From: Ignavibacteriae bacterium HGW-Ignavibacteriae-4
GTDB lineage: Bacteria > Bacteroidota > Ignavibacteria > Kapaibacteriales > UBA2268
Assembly: GCA_002839765.1 (NCBI GenBank)
Contig: PGYR01000032.1
Location: 1-32,147, forward strand
DNA length: 32,147 bases
Reading direction: 5' to 3'
Shown here: in pieces, positions 5,560 through 32,147 of the stretch
How positions within the stretch are numbered: position 1 is the first letter of the stretch
Layout: each line of letters starts with the position of its first letter
Position numbers and translations under genes: made by a program
Notes under the pieces: model-generated
The model's input: the letters and a program-made list of their open reading frames with translations, nothing else
Database searches by the model: none
What the model was told of the DNA's origin: nothing

Positions 5560-7635
5560 TTATATGCTGTATCTAAAGTATGCGTTAACGCTTATACCCG
5601 GATTAGGTACTCCAAATATAGAAAGATTAGACATTGGGTCTATGTATTGTCGGTTAAGTAAATTCTTACCATTTAGTCCTATTGTCAAATCTCTATCGTA
5701 TAATGATACATCTGTCTGCAAATTCAAATTAAGCAAGTTGTACCACTTACCGCCGCTATTGGTTATCAATCTACCGTCATTCCATATATTCATAAATTGA
5801 AGGAACTGAGCTGCTATTTGCGGTTTTTTGAATGAACCCATATCAGCAAAGTTATGTTTCAATTCTAGATTTAACTTATCTACTGGTAGATTGTAGATTA
5901 TATAGCTGTTAGAAATTAGATTGTTTTTTGTAGTCGAAAAACTCAAATTGAAATCAGAACTACTCGTTTCCCAATTTGATGTGAAACCCGCACCCAACTC
6001 GAAACCATAGAATTCAGCATCATTTTGTACGAAGTTGAATGTGGGTCTAGTCTCGGGACGTGGTGGACTCAGCATTTCCTCTAGGTAAATGAAATTATTG
6101 AAATCTTGATAAAATACCGAACCAAAGTATCTGAAATCTCTAGAAGTTTCATTGAATGAAAATTCAACCGATGATGACCTTTCGGCTTCTAGATTGCTAT
6201 TACCATATTCTACTCGCATTGACTCTGGCTTGAAGCCGGTAGAAGCAAGTTCGTTTATATTAGGTGGACGGAATCCAGTAGCTAGGTTTAAAGAAACTTT
6301 ACTAGTATTTGAGGTCAAATAACTTGCACCCAAATTACCTGAAAAAGCAGCAAAGTTCTTATCTATATCTGCATCGAATAAATTGATATAGTTATTAGTG
6401 CTATAAGCAGCCCTATCCCAGCTTATTCCACCATTCAACTCCCAACTGGTTATCTTATAGTTAGAAGCTAAGAAAGCACCTGTATTAAGGACTGTATTAT
6501 CAGGAACAAAAGTATATACAGCTTTATTTTTCATATCCGAATACTCTGTTCTGATTCCTAACTTTGTCTCGAAGTCAGCTGATTGAATAATAGGATAAGC
6601 CGAACGGAAGTGAAACCCCTTTGTTTCTAATCCTATATATTTAGTCGGTACTTTGGGGTTACCGTTCAATGGTTCGAATTCATTTCTTAAATCAAGTTCA
6701 CCTGCCGCTGCCAATTCTAAGAATCTATCGCCAATTTTTATATCTGAATTAATCTGTAATCTATTCCCAACTATAGAGTGATATGGTGCTTCGAATTCGT
6801 GTGGGTACTCTTCCTCTTCTTCAAAGGCAGGGTTGTTCTCTGACTCATTGGGGTCTAGAATGCCGTATAAAGCGAAATTTAGCTTGTATCGGAATTTAAT
6901 ACTACCCCAATCCTCTTTGAAGCCATATATAGCGTTGAATCCTGTCCTCCAGAAACGAGTATTGAAAGCACGCTCATTATCTGCAAATCGATAATCACTT
7001 ATTGATTTGGTGTCGAAAGAGAGCTTCCAAAATGAGTTTTTTCCTGTATTACCAAGTCCTTCTATTCTTCCGAAGAATCCCAACCCATTAGAAATAAAAC
7101 CAGCATTAGTGTTAATATTTGTCTCAGTCATATTCATCGGTATATGATCTTCGAAAAGTAAAGCACCACCGATAGCATCTGTCCCATATAGCATAGTCGA
7201 AGTACCTAGTACTGCTGTCGCCTGAGTGAAATCATTATCATTGATTCCCAATCCATGCAATTCGTCCCATGCTTGAGTAACGAAGCCCAAACCATCTACA
7301 AGTGTTTTAACTCTAGTCCCGCCCAAACCCCTGATAATAGGTCGAGTTATTCCTTCGCCGAATGATATCATAGATACACCCGGTTGGTTAGCAAAAGCTG
7401 CTGAAACAGATGATGGTGAATATTTGAATAAGTTTTCTTGTGAGATTTTTGATATCGATTGTGATCTTAATATTGGGGAATGAGTAATATCGGATGTGAC
7501 TAATATATCAGGGCTTGTATAAGATGCCGTATCCGATTGTTGAAATTCTGTTTGATTTTCTAAGTTTCGTGAGTAAGTTCTAACGCGTATTAAAAAAAGA
7601 GAAATTGTTAGCAGTAGAATATATTTATAATTCAA
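5560..7635 (-). CDS. TonB-dependent outer-membrane receptor, complete
   Basis: 691 residues. MNYKYILLLTISLFLIRVRT is the signal segment. A plug follows without a visible carboxypeptidase-like (SusC-type) N-terminal domain: SPDILVTSD (TonB-box-like start), NQPGVSMISFGEGITRPIIR (~84-102), GTRVKTLVDGLGFVTQAWDE (~106-125), HGLGIND, and VLGTSTMLYGTDAIGGALLF (~142-161). The rest is a 22-strand-type barrel with FRPPNINELASTGFKPES, a KNLLNRQYIDPMS block and an aromatic end (FRYSI). The RPIIRGLxGxRVKTLxDG / HGxxID arrangement resembles the COG1629 group that includes ZnuD-like metal receptors, but ZnuD-type histidine loops are not seen, so no substrate is assigned. No inner-membrane partner genes flank it. 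A well-formed promoter sits at 7665-7695. Confidence 0.9.
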   Translation of the reverse strand: MNYKYILLLTISLFLIRVRTYSRNLENQTEFQQSDTASYTSPDILVTSDITHSPILRSQSISKISQENLFKYSPSSVSAAFANQPGVSMISFGEGITRPIIRGLGGTRVKTLVDGLGFVTQAWDELHGLGINDNDFTQATAVLGTSTMLYGTDAIGGALLFEDHIPMNMTETNINTNAGFISNGLGFFGRIEGLGNTGKNSFWKLSFDTKSISDYRFADNERAFNTRFWRTGFNAIYGFKEDWGSIKFRYKLNFALYGILDPNESENNPAFEEEEEYPHEFEAPYHSIVGNRLQINSDIKIGDRFLELAAAGELDLRNEFEPLNGNPKVPTKYIGLETKGFHFRSAYPIIQSADFETKLGIRTEYSDMKNKAVYTFVPDNTVLNTGAFLASNYKITSWELNGGISWDRAAYSTNNYINLFDADIDKNFAAFSGNLGASYLTSNTSKVSLNLATGFRPPNINELASTGFKPESMRVEYGNSNLEAERSSSVEFSFNETSRDFRYFGSVFYQDFNNFIYLEEMLSPPRPETRPTFNFVQNDAEFYGFELGAGFTSNWETSSSDFNLSFSTTKNNLISNSYIIYNLPVDKLNLELKHNFADMGSFKKPQIAAQFLQFMNIWNDGRLITNSGGKWYNLLNLNLQTDVSLYDRDLTIGLNGKNLLNRQYIDPMSNLSIFGVPNPGISVNAYFRYSI

Positions 7636-25654: not shown

Positions 25655-25848
25655 GTTACGGAATAGTTAAAATAAAATAAGAATCGTAACAATATGAAGG
25701 GGTGCTTTTGTGAATTTTATACTGCCTAAATATGGTGCTATATCTTTGTTGTCAAATAGTATAGTTGAATATACCACCCCGTAATGCCACAAGAGTCAGT
25801 ACGCTCAAAAGTAATTAGGCCGTATTTCGTAACGATTATTATTTTAAC
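25655..25848. other. Non-coding stretch with competing inverted repeats (candidate structured RNA or regulatory DNA)
   Basis: The gap 25469-25945 has no coding frame. Within it, 25666-25675 pairs with 25839-25848 (10 bp), continued by 25682-25687 with 25832-25837 (6 bp). An inner ggggtg (25699-25704) pairs with cacccc (25775-25780). A second left arm, 25655-25665, can pair instead with 25823-25833 (11 bp, one G-U), which crosses the first pairing. No tmRNA, SRP, RNase P or recognisable 6S signature is seen. It could be a structured RNA, a long leader of the OmpA gene, or repeated operators. Confidence 0.3.
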
Positions 25849-25945: not shown

Positions 25946-26698
25946 TTATATTGTACTAAATCCTAGTATAAAGCCTTGTGCTACCAAATCATTTGCAAAT
26001 ACTAACCCATGCTGAATTGCTTGATTCTCATCTATTCCGAATGTCTCGGAGCTAGTTCTAATCGCTGATTCGAGTGTCGAATTCTCATCGACTATGATTT
26101 GTAATGTGAGAGCGAAAAATGCTGATATGTTGAGAAACCTAACGGCTCCCGTGTCATGCTTTCTGAAGATTAGTACAAAATAGTTACCTTTCTTATCTAA
26201 TAGCTCATCTCCCTTGAATTTATGAACGGGGTATTCGAATGCTAATAGCTCATGTTCGGGTGTTACGACTAATTTATCATGGAGTATATCACCATCTCCT
26301 ATATATATAGGTATTGCCATATCTTCCATTGTGTGTAATTCTATCTCTATCCATTCGAAATAGAGTAGTTCATCTAGATATGGTCTATTGAATTTTTCAC
26401 CGTATTTCTGTGCTACGCAATATTCGTAGAACTCGAATGGCATTTTCCAAACTAATGGTGTTTGCATCTTATGATTTGCGAAATAGTCATCAACCATAGT
26501 CAGCCATTCTTTCTCTGAGAGAGTTTTCTCAGCTATGGGGTATGCAGTTGCTAATGCACCTTTTATTACATTATAGGTCAATCTGCGATAGTGGTGCAAT
26601 CGATCTTGCTTAGCTCCCTCTATTGTAACTTCCAATCCTGTTTTGCAATAGTCGGCTAATTTCGATTGTATATTATGAGTTTCTTTTTTCAGTAGCAT
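25946..26698 (-). CDS. DUF2063 partner protein of a DUF692 oxidase (BufC/HvfC-like)
   Basis: 250 residues. The N-terminal ~95 residues fit the DUF2063 'putative DNA-binding' domain: HHYRRLTYNVIKGALATAYP, then WLTMVDDYFANHKMQTPLVW and EFYEYC. The rest (~100-250) is a second alpha/beta domain with PYLDELLYFEWIEIELHTME and YFVLIFRKHDTGAVRFLNIS, as in the two-domain HvfC/BufC/MbnC-type partners. These proteins bind the precursor leader or core and deliver it to the DUF692 oxidase; the DNA-binding label in the family name is historical. The start overlaps the oxidase gene by 26 nt, so the two are coupled. A weak terminator follows, and no DoxX-like gene comes after it. Confidence 0.85.
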   Translation of the reverse strand: MLLKKETHNIQSKLADYCKTGLEVTIEGAKQDRLHHYRRLTYNVIKGALATAYPIAEKTLSEKEWLTMVDDYFANHKMQTPLVWKMPFEFYEYCVAQKYGEKFNRPYLDELLYFEWIEIELHTMEDMAIPIYIGDGDILHDKLVVTPEHELLAFEYPVHKFKGDELLDKKGNYFVLIFRKHDTGAVRFLNISAFFALTLQIIVDENSTLESAIRTSSETFGIDENQAIQHGLVFANDLVAQGFILGFSTI

Positions 26699-27518
26699 AT
26701 TCGCCTATCCAAACTTTATCTACTATACTTTGCAATTTTGCTATCTCCGCTTGTAATTCTTTCATCTGAGGTATATTGAAATCGCGCTCTAGTAATATCG
26801 GTACTGGCGAAATACGCTCGATAGTCCATTCGAATAAATCAAATACTGGGTCTATAATCGGTTGCCCATGAGTATCTATTATTGTGTCAGGGGATACCTG
26901 CTCGTGACCAGCCATGTGTATATATTTCACTCTATCCAATGGTAGGTTCTCGATGAATTCCTTAGCATTGTACTTGTGGTTGAATGCATTGACATATACA
27001 TTATTCACGTCCAACAGCAAATTACAGCCCGATTTCTCTACTATCTGGCTTATGAAACTGGCTTCGTCCATCTCAGCTGCCACTGCTGTATAATATGACA
27101 CATTCTCAATTGCTAAGGGTCTTTCCAAATAGTCTTGGACTATGCGGATTCTCTCCGATACATGGTCTATGGCATCTTGTCTAAAAGGTATAGGTAGTAA
27201 GTCATACAGATGTGCATTATCGCACTTACTATAGCTCAGATGTTCGGAATAAACTTCTGGTTTGAACTCGTCGAAGAATTTCTTCAATTCTTTGAGGAAC
27301 TCAAAATCTAAATCTTCAGGACTACCTATCGAAAGCGACAATCCGTGACACATAATAGGATATTTTTCCGCAGCTTCTCTTAGTTTCTTACGCCAATATC
27401 CACCCATCTGCATCCAATTCTCTGGAGCAAATTCTATGAACTTTGGTTTATCTTCTTCTAGTGCTATTATCTGCTTTGCTATATCTCTTCGGAATCCTAA
27501 TCCTACACCGCTTATCAT
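26673..27518 (-). CDS. DUF692 multinuclear non-haem iron oxidase (MNIO; BufB/HvfB-like)
   Basis: 281 residues, full length. DUF692 enzymes (MbnB, TglH, HvfB, BufB) are TIM-barrel proteins with two or three iron ions that oxidise cysteines of ribosomal peptides, giving oxazolone/thioamide or thiooxazole groups. The metal ligands known from the family are all visible: H58 (CHGLSLSIG), H93 (SEHLSYS), E138 (AIENVSYY), D170 and its NN pair (LLLDVNNVYVNAFNH, with H181), H201 (YIHMAGH), D215/H217 (IDTHGQPI) and E244 (LLERDFNIP). The N-terminus GVGLGFRRDIAKQI is also typical. It follows the precursor gene after 78 nt that contain a hairpin with U-tract, and overlaps its partner gene by 26 nt. Confidence 0.93.
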   Translation of the reverse strand: MISGVGLGFRRDIAKQIIALEEDKPKFIEFAPENWMQMGGYWRKKLREAAEKYPIMCHGLSLSIGSPEDLDFEFLKELKKFFDEFKPEVYSEHLSYSKCDNAHLYDLLPIPFRQDAIDHVSERIRIVQDYLERPLAIENVSYYTAVAAEMDEASFISQIVEKSGCNLLLDVNNVYVNAFNHKYNAKEFIENLPLDRVKYIHMAGHEQVSPDTIIDTHGQPIIDPVFDLFEWTIERISPVPILLERDFNIPQMKELQAEIAKLQSIVDKVWIGEYATEKRNS

Positions 27519-27540
27519 TTTACTGTCTTTCGTTAATTTA

Positions 27541-27571
27541 AAAAAAAGGGCTGAAAAATACTCTCCAGCCC
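27541..27571 (-). terminator. Hairpin with U-tract between RiPP precursor and oxidase genes (terminator or attenuator)
   Basis: On the minus strand a 10-bp stem (gggctggaga with tttttcagccc-side pairs, two G-U) closes on a 4-nt loop and is followed by seven U (A-run 27541-27547). It lies 25 nt after the precursor stop and 23 nt before the oxidase start. Partial termination here would give more precursor than enzyme mRNA. Confidence 0.7.
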
Positions 27572-27596
27572 ATATTTGAAAGAATCTAATTAAAGA

Positions 27597-27956
27597 CTAT
27601 TTGCCACAAGTGCCTTCGCCACATTTTCCTTCGCCGCCTTTACCTTCTGAGCCTTCTTCTCCTTCCTCACCTTCTTCTCCTTCCTCGCTACCTTCTTCTT
27701 CTTCACCTTCGCCACATTTTCCTTCGCCGCACTTACCTTCACCGCATTTGCCTTCTTGCAATTTGGCTTCAGTTGCTGAAAGAGTACTGATATAATCAGT
27801 AGTTGAGTTACTCAACAATTCTGATCTTACATCGTTTCCACTTCCCATTGCTTCGTAATCGAAGATACTTACGTCCATAGCGTTTGCAGAACCTGCAGCT
27901 AATACACCAGCTGCTAATAATGATAATTTCGCAGATGCTTTTAATTTGTTACTCAT
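27597..27956 (-). CDS. RiPP precursor peptide with EGKCG repeats (bufferin/HvfA-like)
   Basis: 119 residues. MSNKLKASAKLSLLAAGVLA plus AGSANA is a clear Sec signal with cleavage after ANA (~26). A 40-residue neutral segment follows (~27-66). The core then has three EGKCG units in a row (Cys71, 76, 81), a Glu/Gly/Ser-only stretch (~83-105), a changed unit EGKGG (~104-108, Cys replaced by Gly), EGKCG (Cys112) and a final EGTCGK (Cys117): five Cys in all. EGKCG is the motif modified in HvfA of Haemophilus, where the product binds copper. The exported peptide with an adjacent DUF692 oxidase and DUF2063 partner makes the RiPP call strong. The Glu-rich insert is unusual. A ggag ribosome site precedes the ATG. 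Modification and metal are inferred. Confidence 0.88.
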   Translation of the reverse strand: MSNKLKASAKLSLLAAGVLAAGSANAMDVSIFDYEAMGSGNDVRSELLSNSTTDYISTLSATEAKLQEGKCGEGKCGEGKCGEGEEEEGSEEGEEGEEGEEGSEGKGGEGKCGEGTCGK

Positions 27957-29559: not shown

Positions 29560-32147
29560 TTATTTATTAATCAATTTCCATTCGTTATCTATGTAAAAAA
29601 GCATTCTTAATTGAGTGTTAGTTAACATGTTGGAAGTACCATCATAATTCACAAATATATTACTCCCAGATTTATTGATCACAAAACAAATCTGACCATC
29701 AACTCCAGCTGGAAGAGTTACATTACCTCCTGGTGTTCCATTAAAGTAATATACTGAATATCCAGCAGGTGGAGTTTGCGAACTTCCCTTCCAAATCGAA
29801 GCAAAGTTCATAGTACCATATTCACTAGAACCACTACCACCGATTTTCAATGCCGCAGTTTTAGCATCCGTCGAAACTATCTGTAATCTAGCATCCGGCT
29901 TTTGAGTACCAATACCAACATTAGCAGAGCTGTCTGCTCCGTTCACTCCGTCTATAGCACCAAGCACTACTGTGTGGTTAGCGTCCACTTGTGCTAGTGC
30001 ACCTATGGCAGTAGAGTATTTCGCACTACTATTATTTATCTTTGCACCAGTACCAATAGCGACGTTATTGCTATCCGCTACCGCATTCCCGATTGATATA
30101 TTATTACCTATTAGTACGTTCGATTTACCGTTCATACTCGTTGCCGATTTATTACCAACGACTACGTTATTGCTAGCAGTAGTAGATGATTTCATAGATT
30201 CGAAACCAACAACTACGTTACTAGTACCATTAGTTATGCTACTACCCGCAGAATTACCAACGAATACACTTTGATTCTTATTATGAATCATAGTAGTATC
30301 ATTGATAGCATAAGATTTGTCAGTAGTTATAACACCCTCAGCATCTAGTGCAAAAGCTTTGCCTGAACCACCATTAGTTGCTATCGCTTTTATGGCTACG
30401 GCATCACTAGTACCACCGTTTACTGTTCCTTGTACCGTCAAACCAGTTGCCGAACCTGTACTTGTTCCTCCAGTAGCTGTGATTTTTGCACCCAAAGCAC
30501 CACCGTTTGCAACACTTTCATTAGCTACATCGAATATGTATTCAGATATCAATGCTGTTTGCTGTGTACTATCAGTTCCGTAAGTAATATACCCAGTACC
30601 CGCAGTCGATGTAGTCCAAGTCATATTACCACTACCATCCGTTGTAAGGAACTGTCCGTTAGTACCATATCCATCAGGCAATGTAAGAGTGTAGTTTCCG
30701 CTTAGTGCTGAGACAGGTTTTAGTGCTATATAGTTAGAACTATCATTGTCAAAAAATCTAAGAGTTTTACCATGACTTATACTCACGCCATCATAGAATG
30801 TTTTCTCTCCACCGAAAGTTTGAGCATATTTGCTTACAATACCTTTTAGAGAAGCTGTCGCATATTCAATATTTAATTGGGACCCTATAGATTGTCCATC
30901 TCCAGTAAATAGGTTAGAAAGATAAAGTGAACCTAACTTACTATTAAATTTATTCCAATCAGTTTGCGATAAGTAACCACTATTATTGGTGCTTGCAGCG
31001 TCCATATAAAGTGGAGTGCCATCACCATCACCTTTAATTGGCGCTGTTACATTAACTGTAGAAGATGAGTTGCTATTGAATTTAGCCCAATCAGCTTTCG
31101 ATAAGTAACCATCTGTAGACGCATCGGCTTTATCCATTCTTACCTTGTTCGTGCTTGTACCGTCACCGCGGATAGGCAAGTCAGTAACCACATTCATAAC
31201 AGAAAGTTTGCTATTGAAAGTATTCCAGTCAGTAGAACTTAGGTAACCGTTAGTGCTTGTGTTAGCTTGGTCCATTCTTAGCTTATCGCCAGTAGTGCCA
31301 CTGCCTTTTATCGGACTAGTCGGATCTACAGAAACTGAACTCAATTTACCATAGAAAGTAGCATAATCAGTTGAAGACAAGTAACCATCAGAAAGAAAAC
31401 CTGACTTAGCTATCTTAAGTGAATCGGAACTAGTCCCACTTCCCGATAGAGGAATATTCTTCCCAATAACTATACTTGATAATTTATTGTTGAAAGTATT
31501 CCAATCGCCTGAACTAAGGAATCCATGTACAAGGTTTGTAGCTTTTGGGATGGAAATACTATTAGTAATACCATTTCCTGTTAAAGGAGTAGCCACTTTT
31601 ACAGAATCTATGGAAGTGTTATTGTTGAATTTAGTCCAATCCGTAGCCGAAAGATAACCGTCAGTGCTGCCGTCCGCTTTAGCAATAGTCAGAGGGTTTC
31701 CTATTATACCCGTGCCACTTAGAGGTATGCTATTAGCAACAGTAACAGTAGAAAGTTTATTATTGAAAGTATTCCAATTTGCTGCAGTTAAATAACCGTC
31801 TGTCGTAGTACTCGCCTTAGCTATTGTCAATGAATCGCTACTTGTTCCACTACCAGACAATGGGATGTTTTTAGCAACAGTAACGGTTGAAAGTTTGTTG
31901 TTAAAAGCGACCCAATCTGTAGAACCAAGGTAACCATTTGTACTGGCATCAGCTCTGCCAATTGTTATTGGAATGTCAACACCGTTCCCAACAATCGGTC
32001 CACTAACAGAAACAGTCGAAATTTTGCCATTAAATGATTTCCAGTCAGTCGAATCTAAATAACCGTTAGCTGAACTACTTGCTTTCGATATTTTAATTGG
32101 GTCACCGCTTGTACCATCACCCGAAAGCGGAGAATTAACCGATACAG
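29560..32147 (-). CDS. Giant tail-fibre-like repeat protein, C-terminal part (5' end outside the window)
   Basis: The frame is open from the right edge to the stop at 29560, at least 862 codons; the TTG at 31860 is internal. Roughly the first 450 residues are nine tandem ~44-residue units of the type PLSGxGTxxxxLxIAKA, xSTDGYLSSTDWNTFNNKLS (30,945-32,147), plus one degenerate unit. A LTLPDGYGTNGQFLTTDGSG segment follows. Then come YadA-head-like short repeats (VFVGNSAGSS, NVVVGNKSAT, NVLIGNNISIGN, NNVAIGTGAKI), a VGIGTQKPDARLQI motif common in Bacteroidota surface fibres, and a final beta domain. No S74 chaperone and no T9SS signal is seen at the C-terminus (FYIDNEWKLINK). It is likely a trimeric fibre or adhesin. 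Phage origin is not supported by neighbours. Confidence 0.8.
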   Translation of the reverse strand, partial: VSVNSPLSGDGTSGDPIKISKASSSANGYLDSTDWKSFNGKISTVSVSGPIVGNGVDIPITIGRADASTNGYLGSTDWVAFNNKLSTVTVAKNIPLSGSGTSSDSLTIAKASTTTDGYLTAANWNTFNNKLSTVTVANSIPLSGTGIIGNPLTIAKADGSTDGYLSATDWTKFNNNTSIDSVKVATPLTGNGITNSISIPKATNLVHGFLSSGDWNTFNNKLSSIVIGKNIPLSGSGTSSDSLKIAKSGFLSDGYLSSTDYATFYGKLSSVSVDPTSPIKGSGTTGDKLRMDQANTSTNGYLSSTDWNTFNSKLSVMNVVTDLPIRGDGTSTNKVRMDKADASTDGYLSKADWAKFNSNSSSTVNVTAPIKGDGDGTPLYMDAASTNNSGYLSQTDWNKFNSKLGSLYLSNLFTGDGQSIGSQLNIEYATASLKGIVSKYAQTFGGEKTFYDGVSISHGKTLRFFDNDSSNYIALKPVSALSGNYTLTLPDGYGTNGQFLTTDGSGNMTWTTSTAGTGYITYGTDSTQQTALISEYIFDVANESVANGGALGAKITATGGTSTGSATGLTVQGTVNGGTSDAVAIKAIATNGGSGKAFALDAEGVITTDKSYAINDTTMIHNKNQSVFVGNSAGSSITNGTSNVVVGFESMKSSTTASNNVVVGNKSATSMNGKSNVLIGNNISIGNAVADSNNVAIGTGAKINNSSAKYSTAIGALAQVDANHTVVLGAIDGVNGADSSANVGIGTQKPDARLQIVSTDAKTAALKIGGSGSSEYGTMNFASIWKGSSQTPPAGYSVYYFNGTPGGNVTLPAGVDGQICFVINKSGSNIFVNYDGTSNMLTNTQLRMLFYIDNEWKLINK
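30945..32147 (-). repeat. Array of nine ~132-138 bp coding repeats
   Basis: Each unit encodes a variant of GYLSxxDWxxFNxKLS followed by PLSGxGT. Units are diverged but conserve the DW and FN positions. The first seen is at the right edge and the last clear one ends near 30945; the array continues outside the window. Confidence 0.8.

Follow-up and report, generated by a model that had tools for sequence, protein, structure and literature searches.

A gene cluster of Ignavibacteriae bacterium HGW-Ignavibacteriae-4 very likely (with a probability of roughly 0.87) encodes a captophorin/oxazolin-type RiPP system, i.e., one of the oxazolin, fontiphorin, and gonophorin kind that would give rise to an enzyme-modified, exported, and metal-binding peptide. 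The window analyzed here is a stretch of 32,147 nucleotides of contig PGYR01000032.1 (host assembly GCA_002839765.1; 3.36 Mb in 110 contigs). The ORFs of all three core components were confirmed on its minus strand in the order precursor-oxidase-partner that the initial annotation had given, with 78 bases between the end of the precursor gene and the downstream MNIO gene and an overlap of 26 bases between the MNIO and DUF2063 partner ORFs (Table 1). The same annotation spoke of a three-gene cluster, and all three genes are indeed present, but the cluster was originally larger and included an adjacent doxX/hvfX gene that has decayed. Its placement among the HvfABC/bufferin-like systems is borne out by profile matches and phylogeny as well as by the order of the genes, the fold of the partner, and the conserved residues. 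The window system is an ordinary member of this family, and a leader motif and an intergenic hairpin are its new testable details.

Table 1. Components of the cluster and associated features (positions refer to the window)
Feature	Position	Strand	Basis
Precursor peptide, HvfA-type, 119 aa	27597..27956	-	ORF; signal peptide, linker, Cys-repeat core
MNIO (DUF692/PF05114), HvfB-type peptide oxidase, 281 aa	26673..27518	-	ORF, profiles, tree, invariant residues, dN/dS
PME1 partner, HvfC-type (DUF2063 + RRE-like C-terminal domain), 250 aa	25946..26698	-	ORF, profiles, AlphaFold model
MGSGNDVRSEL, residues 37-47, window copy of LGSGxEVRxxL, candidate RRE docking site	27816..27848	-	Pattern across precursors
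Core, residues 68-118: EGKCG x3, acidic linker, EGKGG, EGKCG, EGTCG	27603..27755	-	Sequence and congener alignment
Terminator-like hairpin and run of eight T, candidate attenuator	27540..27571 (10-bp stem 27548-27571)	-	Gap between precursor and oxidase genes
doxX/hvfX 3' remnant, decayed	25739..25844	-	Match to intact congener gene

The precursor had been described as an exported peptide with EGKCG repeats, in line with a Sec-type signal that we read by eye (residues 1 to 26, ending in ANA) and five EG[K/T]CG pentamers with cysteines at residues 71, 76, 81, 112, and 117; shuffling the peptide sequence 20,000 times never gave as many as two such pentamers. By inspection, the core consists of blocks of 3x5 and 2x5 residues with an acidic Glu/Gly linker between them. 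No Pfam family, DUF2282 included, matched the peptide at E <= 1, and its score against the NCBIfam HvfA equivalog NF050188 (22.8) is below a cut-off of 95 that is strict, because the gonophorin precursor likewise reaches only 48.3. Against the KCGExKCG_twice model (NF050137; cut-off 19.5), the whole protein scored 19.0, whereas the genome search gave 21.3, flagged as over the cut-off, together with another matching segment in that reading frame. Three congeners have six core cysteines where the window has five, and the EGKGG of the window lies near their sixth-cysteine site in an alignment compatible with a substitution or a small deletion.

The oxidase matches PF05114 (347 bits; cut-off 25) and the NCBIfam HvfB model (385.9; cut-off 360, with 368.9 for the gonophorin MNIO), but falls below the cut-offs of the BufB model (289.8; cut-off 310) and of the MbnB equivalog of methanobactin biosynthesis (59.2; cut-off 325). 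Residues H58, H93, E138, D170, N173, H201, D215, H217, and E244 are identical in all 95 aligned MNIOs and, by motif, would be the metal ligands, so that the proposed DUF692 enzyme with the expected ligand set holds up. Three residues of HvfB reported as needed for activity (N175, D242, and H244; PMC13419390) would correspond to N173, D215, and H217 of the window enzyme. The partner matches PF09836 (53.8; cut-off 27.2) and PF22106 (42.1; cut-off 27) and misses the cut-off of the HvfC equivalog NF050145 by 2 bits (140.2 versus 142). Its AlphaFold model (mean pLDDT of 90.8) finds NGO1945 (3dee; E 3.8e-8) as best PDB match, followed by two TglHI entries (E 2.9e-4 and 5.1e-4), while MbnC and lasso-peptide RREs whose structures include leader peptides come at E above 0.1. 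The MNIO is 97, 92, and 91% identical to those of three genus-mates. Compared to three congeners, the MNIO has a dN/dS of 0.021-0.031, the partner one of 0.048-0.087 (with one congener gene cut by a contig end), and the precursor one of 0.063-0.124; these low ratios, for which several dS values are near saturation, indicate that the cluster is under purifying selection.

Among known systems, oxazolin hvfABC(X) of non-typeable Haemophilus influenzae shares with the window the Sec-exported EGKCG precursor, the HvfB-type MNIO, and the DUF2063-RRE partner. Its HvfX (DoxX) is also encoded by a window congener but decayed in the window, and the window precursor differs by its five instead of six core cysteines, its acidic Glu/Gly linker, and a score below the HvfA equivalog cut-off. 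Bulbicupramide MmrABC of Microbulbifer, a member of Pseudomonadota and thus of a phylum other than that of the window host, has EGKCG cassettes and the MNIO/DUF2063 pair in common with the window; Cu(I) binding is reported for bulbicupramide (PMC12538549) and is expected by analogy for the window peptide. The captophorins gonophorin (NgoABC, from Neisseria gonorrhoeae) and fontiphorin (FonABC, from Fontimonas thermophila) likewise combine MNIO, PME1, and an EGKCG precursor. The gonophorin MNIO belongs to the same 87-row tree group as that of the window (see below), and the gonophorin gap also holds a hairpin and T run, but gonophorin and fontiphorin come from Pseudomonadota, unlike the window, and the gonophorin precursor (L111) is Lys-rich and devoid of any LGSGxEVR-like stretch whereas that of the window is acidic and carries the motif. 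The bufferins Buf1 (DUF2282) and Buf2 resemble the window in Sec signal, MNIO, DUF2063 partner, and, presumably, copper, yet the window precursor has no DUF2282 match as in Buf1 and the window MNIO stays below the BufB cut-off.

MNIOs catalyze several types of reaction. With such versatile enzymes, the cysteines could be modified in another way (to an oxazolone-thioamide or otherwise) and the product would then not be a 5-thiooxazole peptide, and oxazolin itself was initially assigned as an oxazolone-thioamide (PMC13419390). We consider this improbable, given that all characterized MNIO-PME1 cases are reported to put in 5-thiooxazoles (PMC12668002) and that the window MNIO scores higher with the HvfB model than with those of BufB and MbnB. 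From the chemistry of related clusters (PMC12668002, PMC13419390, PMC12538549, and PMC12636315), we infer that 5-thiooxazole formation, export, and Cu(I) binding also apply to the window peptide.

We placed 95 MNIOs in a quick maximum-likelihood tree, which we rooted on four same-order outgroup enzymes and which carries a long-branch warning. It unites the window oxidase and 80 retrieved MNIOs in one group of 81 rows (support 99), with the precursor adjacent in 80 of them and elsewhere in the genome in one. A phylogeny that placed the oxidase among DUF692 proteins without peptide substrate had been named as what would refute the proposal, and the tree instead puts it into this precursor-linked group. 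A larger group of 87 rows (support 100) encloses the 81 rows, a group of four Pseudomonadota rows (support 81) with the gonophorin, P. aeruginosa-plasmid, and Moraxella/Acinetobacter oxidases, and two CxxxxC-type oxidases that pair with each other (support 98), and the branching among these three subgroups has no supported order. A P. putida oxidase and three others of the DUF2282 or a related type fall outside it. To compare horizontal with vertical origin, AU tests were run on a thinned set of 66 MNIOs: a clade of the window genus with the family relative G006 was not rejected (p 0.72), and results were borderline for the genus with five Ignavibacteriales rows (p 0.09) and for all three joined (p 0.053). 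A phage origin was considered and rejected, as a search of 50,697 phage records with the MNIO (E 1e-5) gave no match.

The retrieved loci are the best 80 of 97 found with the MNIO as query against genome contigs, a set biased by similarity to the window oxidase but one for which the precursor was no part of the query. By their titles, 77 of these best 80 belong to Bacteroidota/Ignavibacteriota, and one to Parachlamydiales, while two are titled just "bacterium". Searching such neighborhoods for EGKCG-type peptides had been proposed as a check and was successful: in 79 of the 80, a co-directional gene for a Cys-repeat peptide lies no more than some 300 bases ahead of the oxidase gene (those of L016 and L032 placed by hand), with at least two KCG in 71 of the 79 and variants in the other eight. 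The exception (L035) is G006, in which a 139-residue EGKCG precursor is encoded on another contig beside atp genes (L101:3264-3683, minus strand) and in trans to the enzyme pair (L103:6598-8161, plus strand). In six Chitinophaga precursors (L024, L031, L032, L033, L041, and L063), KCA, KCV, KCS, or KCT replace the KCG repeats. As separate observations, the G006 enzyme contig contains short, CRISPR-like repeats with variable spacers that repeat in several translated frames (L103:9716-11876), and the window encodes a long repetitive protein with repeats like YLS..DW..FN (29560-31860, minus strand) that looks surface- or fiber-like by eye.

The host had been judged Bacteroidota-like, which agrees with a T9SS sorting domain encoded within the window (PF18962, 30.4 versus 27; TIGR04183, 30.5 versus 23) that fits the host phylum and with the Ignavibacteriota/Bacteroidota relatives; the taxonomic surprise attached to this is small, however, because such clusters are common there. 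Within the host family (36 genomes, i.e., our own and 35 relatives, 72-100% complete), MNIO, DUF2063, and EGKCG peptide occur together in five (G000-G003 and G006) and are all absent from the other 31, one of which (G021) has a single sub-threshold MNIO match. Nine of 60 genomes including our own have an MNIO over the cut-off, and the same nine have DUF2063. The remaining four of these are from the same order and provided the outgroup MNIOs of the tree; two have an upstream Cys-Lys peptide, and the KCG model exceeds its cut-off in none of the four. A sample of 296 genomes from across the phylum contains 20 with PF05114 over the cut-off and 3 with a KCG domain match at E <= 0.001, the latter count being too low because the window genome (E 0.00118) and G006 narrowly miss the limit.

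The loss of doxX in the window is established by its remnant, which matches the 3' end of the gene over 108 columns with 71% identity (E 6e-10) in a broken frame and misses about the first 317 bases. The congener locus L011 has an intact doxX-type gene behind the partner (6557-6982; HvfX 129.8 versus a cut-off of 80), and 45 of the 81 loci have a doxX homolog no farther than 4.5 kb away, on the same strand in 44 and with a median position directly behind the partner. The host retains two other DoxX-family genes elsewhere. This decay, the EGKGG near the sixth-cysteine site of the congeners, and the absence of the cluster from most of the family would fit a relic whose peptide is no longer usefully made or modified. 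Such a fate is most unlikely, as frames are open, conserved residues are retained, and dN/dS of MNIO and partner is low, and as HvfX is over the cut-off in only one of the 60 genomes (G003): four of the five family genomes with the cluster are without over-threshold HvfX, although the status of G001 is unsure because its contig ends inside the partner gene. The scarcity of HvfX among these genomes bears on whether HvfX is required at all.

Other neighbors relate to the function of the peptide. At a distance of up to 4.5 kb and mostly upstream (e.g., in L016, L045, and L049), 45 of the 81 loci encode homologs of an ECF sigma factor and 37 those of a small anti-sigma-like protein (representative at 46.7 bits versus a cut-off of 50), both families having been identified through one representative each, while in the window genus a CoA-binding-domain gene takes the place of this pair directly upstream of the cluster. 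No copper genes were recognized adjoining the window cluster. OmpA-family genes beside parts of the cluster in the window and in G006 show distant similarity only and were dismissed as chance neighbors. Buffering of excess copper, taken on its own, is the role that we slightly favor. The modified peptide might instead serve copper acquisition as a chalkophore or protection from redox or oxidative stress, which we regard as less likely: the sigma and anti-sigma homologs would fit a stress response, and the Microbulbifer mmr products are not copper-induced and were undetected in proteomes with or without copper, and the authors hesitate over copper protection (PMC12538549), but no receptor or importer is among those recurrent neighbor families that were identified, a minority of the total. 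DoxX, where present, favors neither direction.

Between signal peptide and core, 75 of 81 precursors (from the 79 loci, G006, and the window) carry the motif LGSGxEVRxxL, a descriptive count since the pattern was written after viewing the sequences. Allowing V at the last position gives 76, with L083 only a loose fit. Of these 76, all but one retain Gly-2, all but one retain Arg-8, and 66 have Tyr or Phe three residues ahead of the motif. Counted from the first motif residue, the next cysteine follows at a distance of 23-25 residues in 50 precursors, 18 in 11, and 27-34 in 15, including the window with 34. Net charge behind the motif is -13 to -17 in the four precursors of the genus (window -14), compared to a median of +8 and negative values in 11 among all 81. 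The motif is absent from four Chryseobacterium precursors and one of Cytophaga, so that no conclusion can be drawn from seven contrast columns in which the partner co-varies with its presence or absence. The precursor of Cytophaga aurantiaca (L077:4645-4938), which lacks LGSGxEVR, has a lipobox-like cysteine and is perhaps a lipoprotein form, and one P. aeruginosa plasmid precursor has a similar LSSGYSV.

We propose LGSGxEVRxxL as a candidate docking site of the RRE, a proposal to be seen together with three observations on related systems. An alanine scan of FonA is reported to show no single essential residue ahead of the core (PMC12668002), bufferin and oxazolin precursors are described as having Sec signals instead of typical leaders (PMC12452194), and the genus-conserved leader of Microbulbifer MmrA was modelled as engaging the RRE (PMC12538549). 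The tolerance of FonA to single alanines argues against an essential docking residue in that peptide. A role of the motif in export, processing, or relation to metal is possible as well.

The gap between precursor and oxidase genes of the window reads GGGCTGGAGAGTATTTTTCAGCCC followed by eight T, and its hairpin of -15 kcal/mol is matched in stability by none of 200 shuffles. Of 77 usable gaps (excluding three shorter than 30 bases and L035, where the gap does not exist), 56 contain a hairpin and T run where 0.66 were expected from 50 shuffles each. The loci are related, and grouping them into 32 clusters by 80% MNIO identity gives a weighted count of 23.2. As controls, 132 further gaps of 40-130 bases between co-directional genes of these loci, unsorted by operon, yielded 13 such hairpins (0.7 in shuffles). 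A first criterion had given 41 of 77 against 4.0 expected and missed a congener whose stem could run into the T run; the final one, set afterwards, allows sub-stems and requires a longer stem with more G-C pairs. It leaves 21 of 77 gaps without hairpin, including three of five Ignavibacteriales loci. Hairpin sequences vary between loci at a conserved position. A hairpin is also present in the gonophorin gap and behind the stand-alone G006 precursor gene, and absent from the nine remaining plasmid loci, of which two have no gap. In the main-text portions of papers on related clusters covered by a term search, there is no mention of a terminator, attenuator, or hairpin.

We regard this element as a candidate attenuator between the precursor and enzyme genes. 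Less probably, it could be a full terminator, with the oxidase-partner pair transcribed from its own promoter and no attenuation. The 78-base gap is roomy enough for a promoter, the stand-alone G006 precursor gene forms a unit separate from the enzyme genes, and such hairpins also occur in the control gaps; yet the gap is short, the precursor-oxidase order is kept in nearly all loci, and hairpin position stays while sequence differs. A promoter scan was uninformative (13 sites versus 15.2 in shuffles).

Taking the attenuator reading together with the characterized relatives, the precursor would be synthesized in the cytosol in excess over the enzymes, owing to partial termination behind its gene. 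The RRE domain of the partner would grip it, probably via LGSGxEVRxxL behind the signal peptide, and offer the EGKCG repeats to the iron oxidase, which with O2 would convert the core cysteines to 5-thiooxazoles, each losing 4 H. Exported via Sec, the product would then act as a copper buffer by binding Cu(I) in the periplasm or beyond the cell. It is conceivable, at somewhat less than even odds, that in EGKCG-type precursors of Bacteroidota and Ignavibacteriota a dedicated stretch F.Y..LGSGxEVRxxL, placed after an ordinary Sec signal and in most cases 23-25 residues ahead of the first cysteine of the core, is read by the RRE before export, that the attenuator sets the ratio of substrate to enzyme, and that this docking also allows a trans-encoded precursor to be modified.

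The related-peptide literature, in the portions of the main texts consulted, describes no characterized EGKCG member from Bacteroidota/Ignavibacteriota, and the recently described class of copper-binding modified peptides now reaches these phyla. The Chitinophaga precursors offer a natural test of the preference for Gly after Cys, and the leader motif is a mutable handle on how precursors with a Sec signal but no typical leader are recognized.
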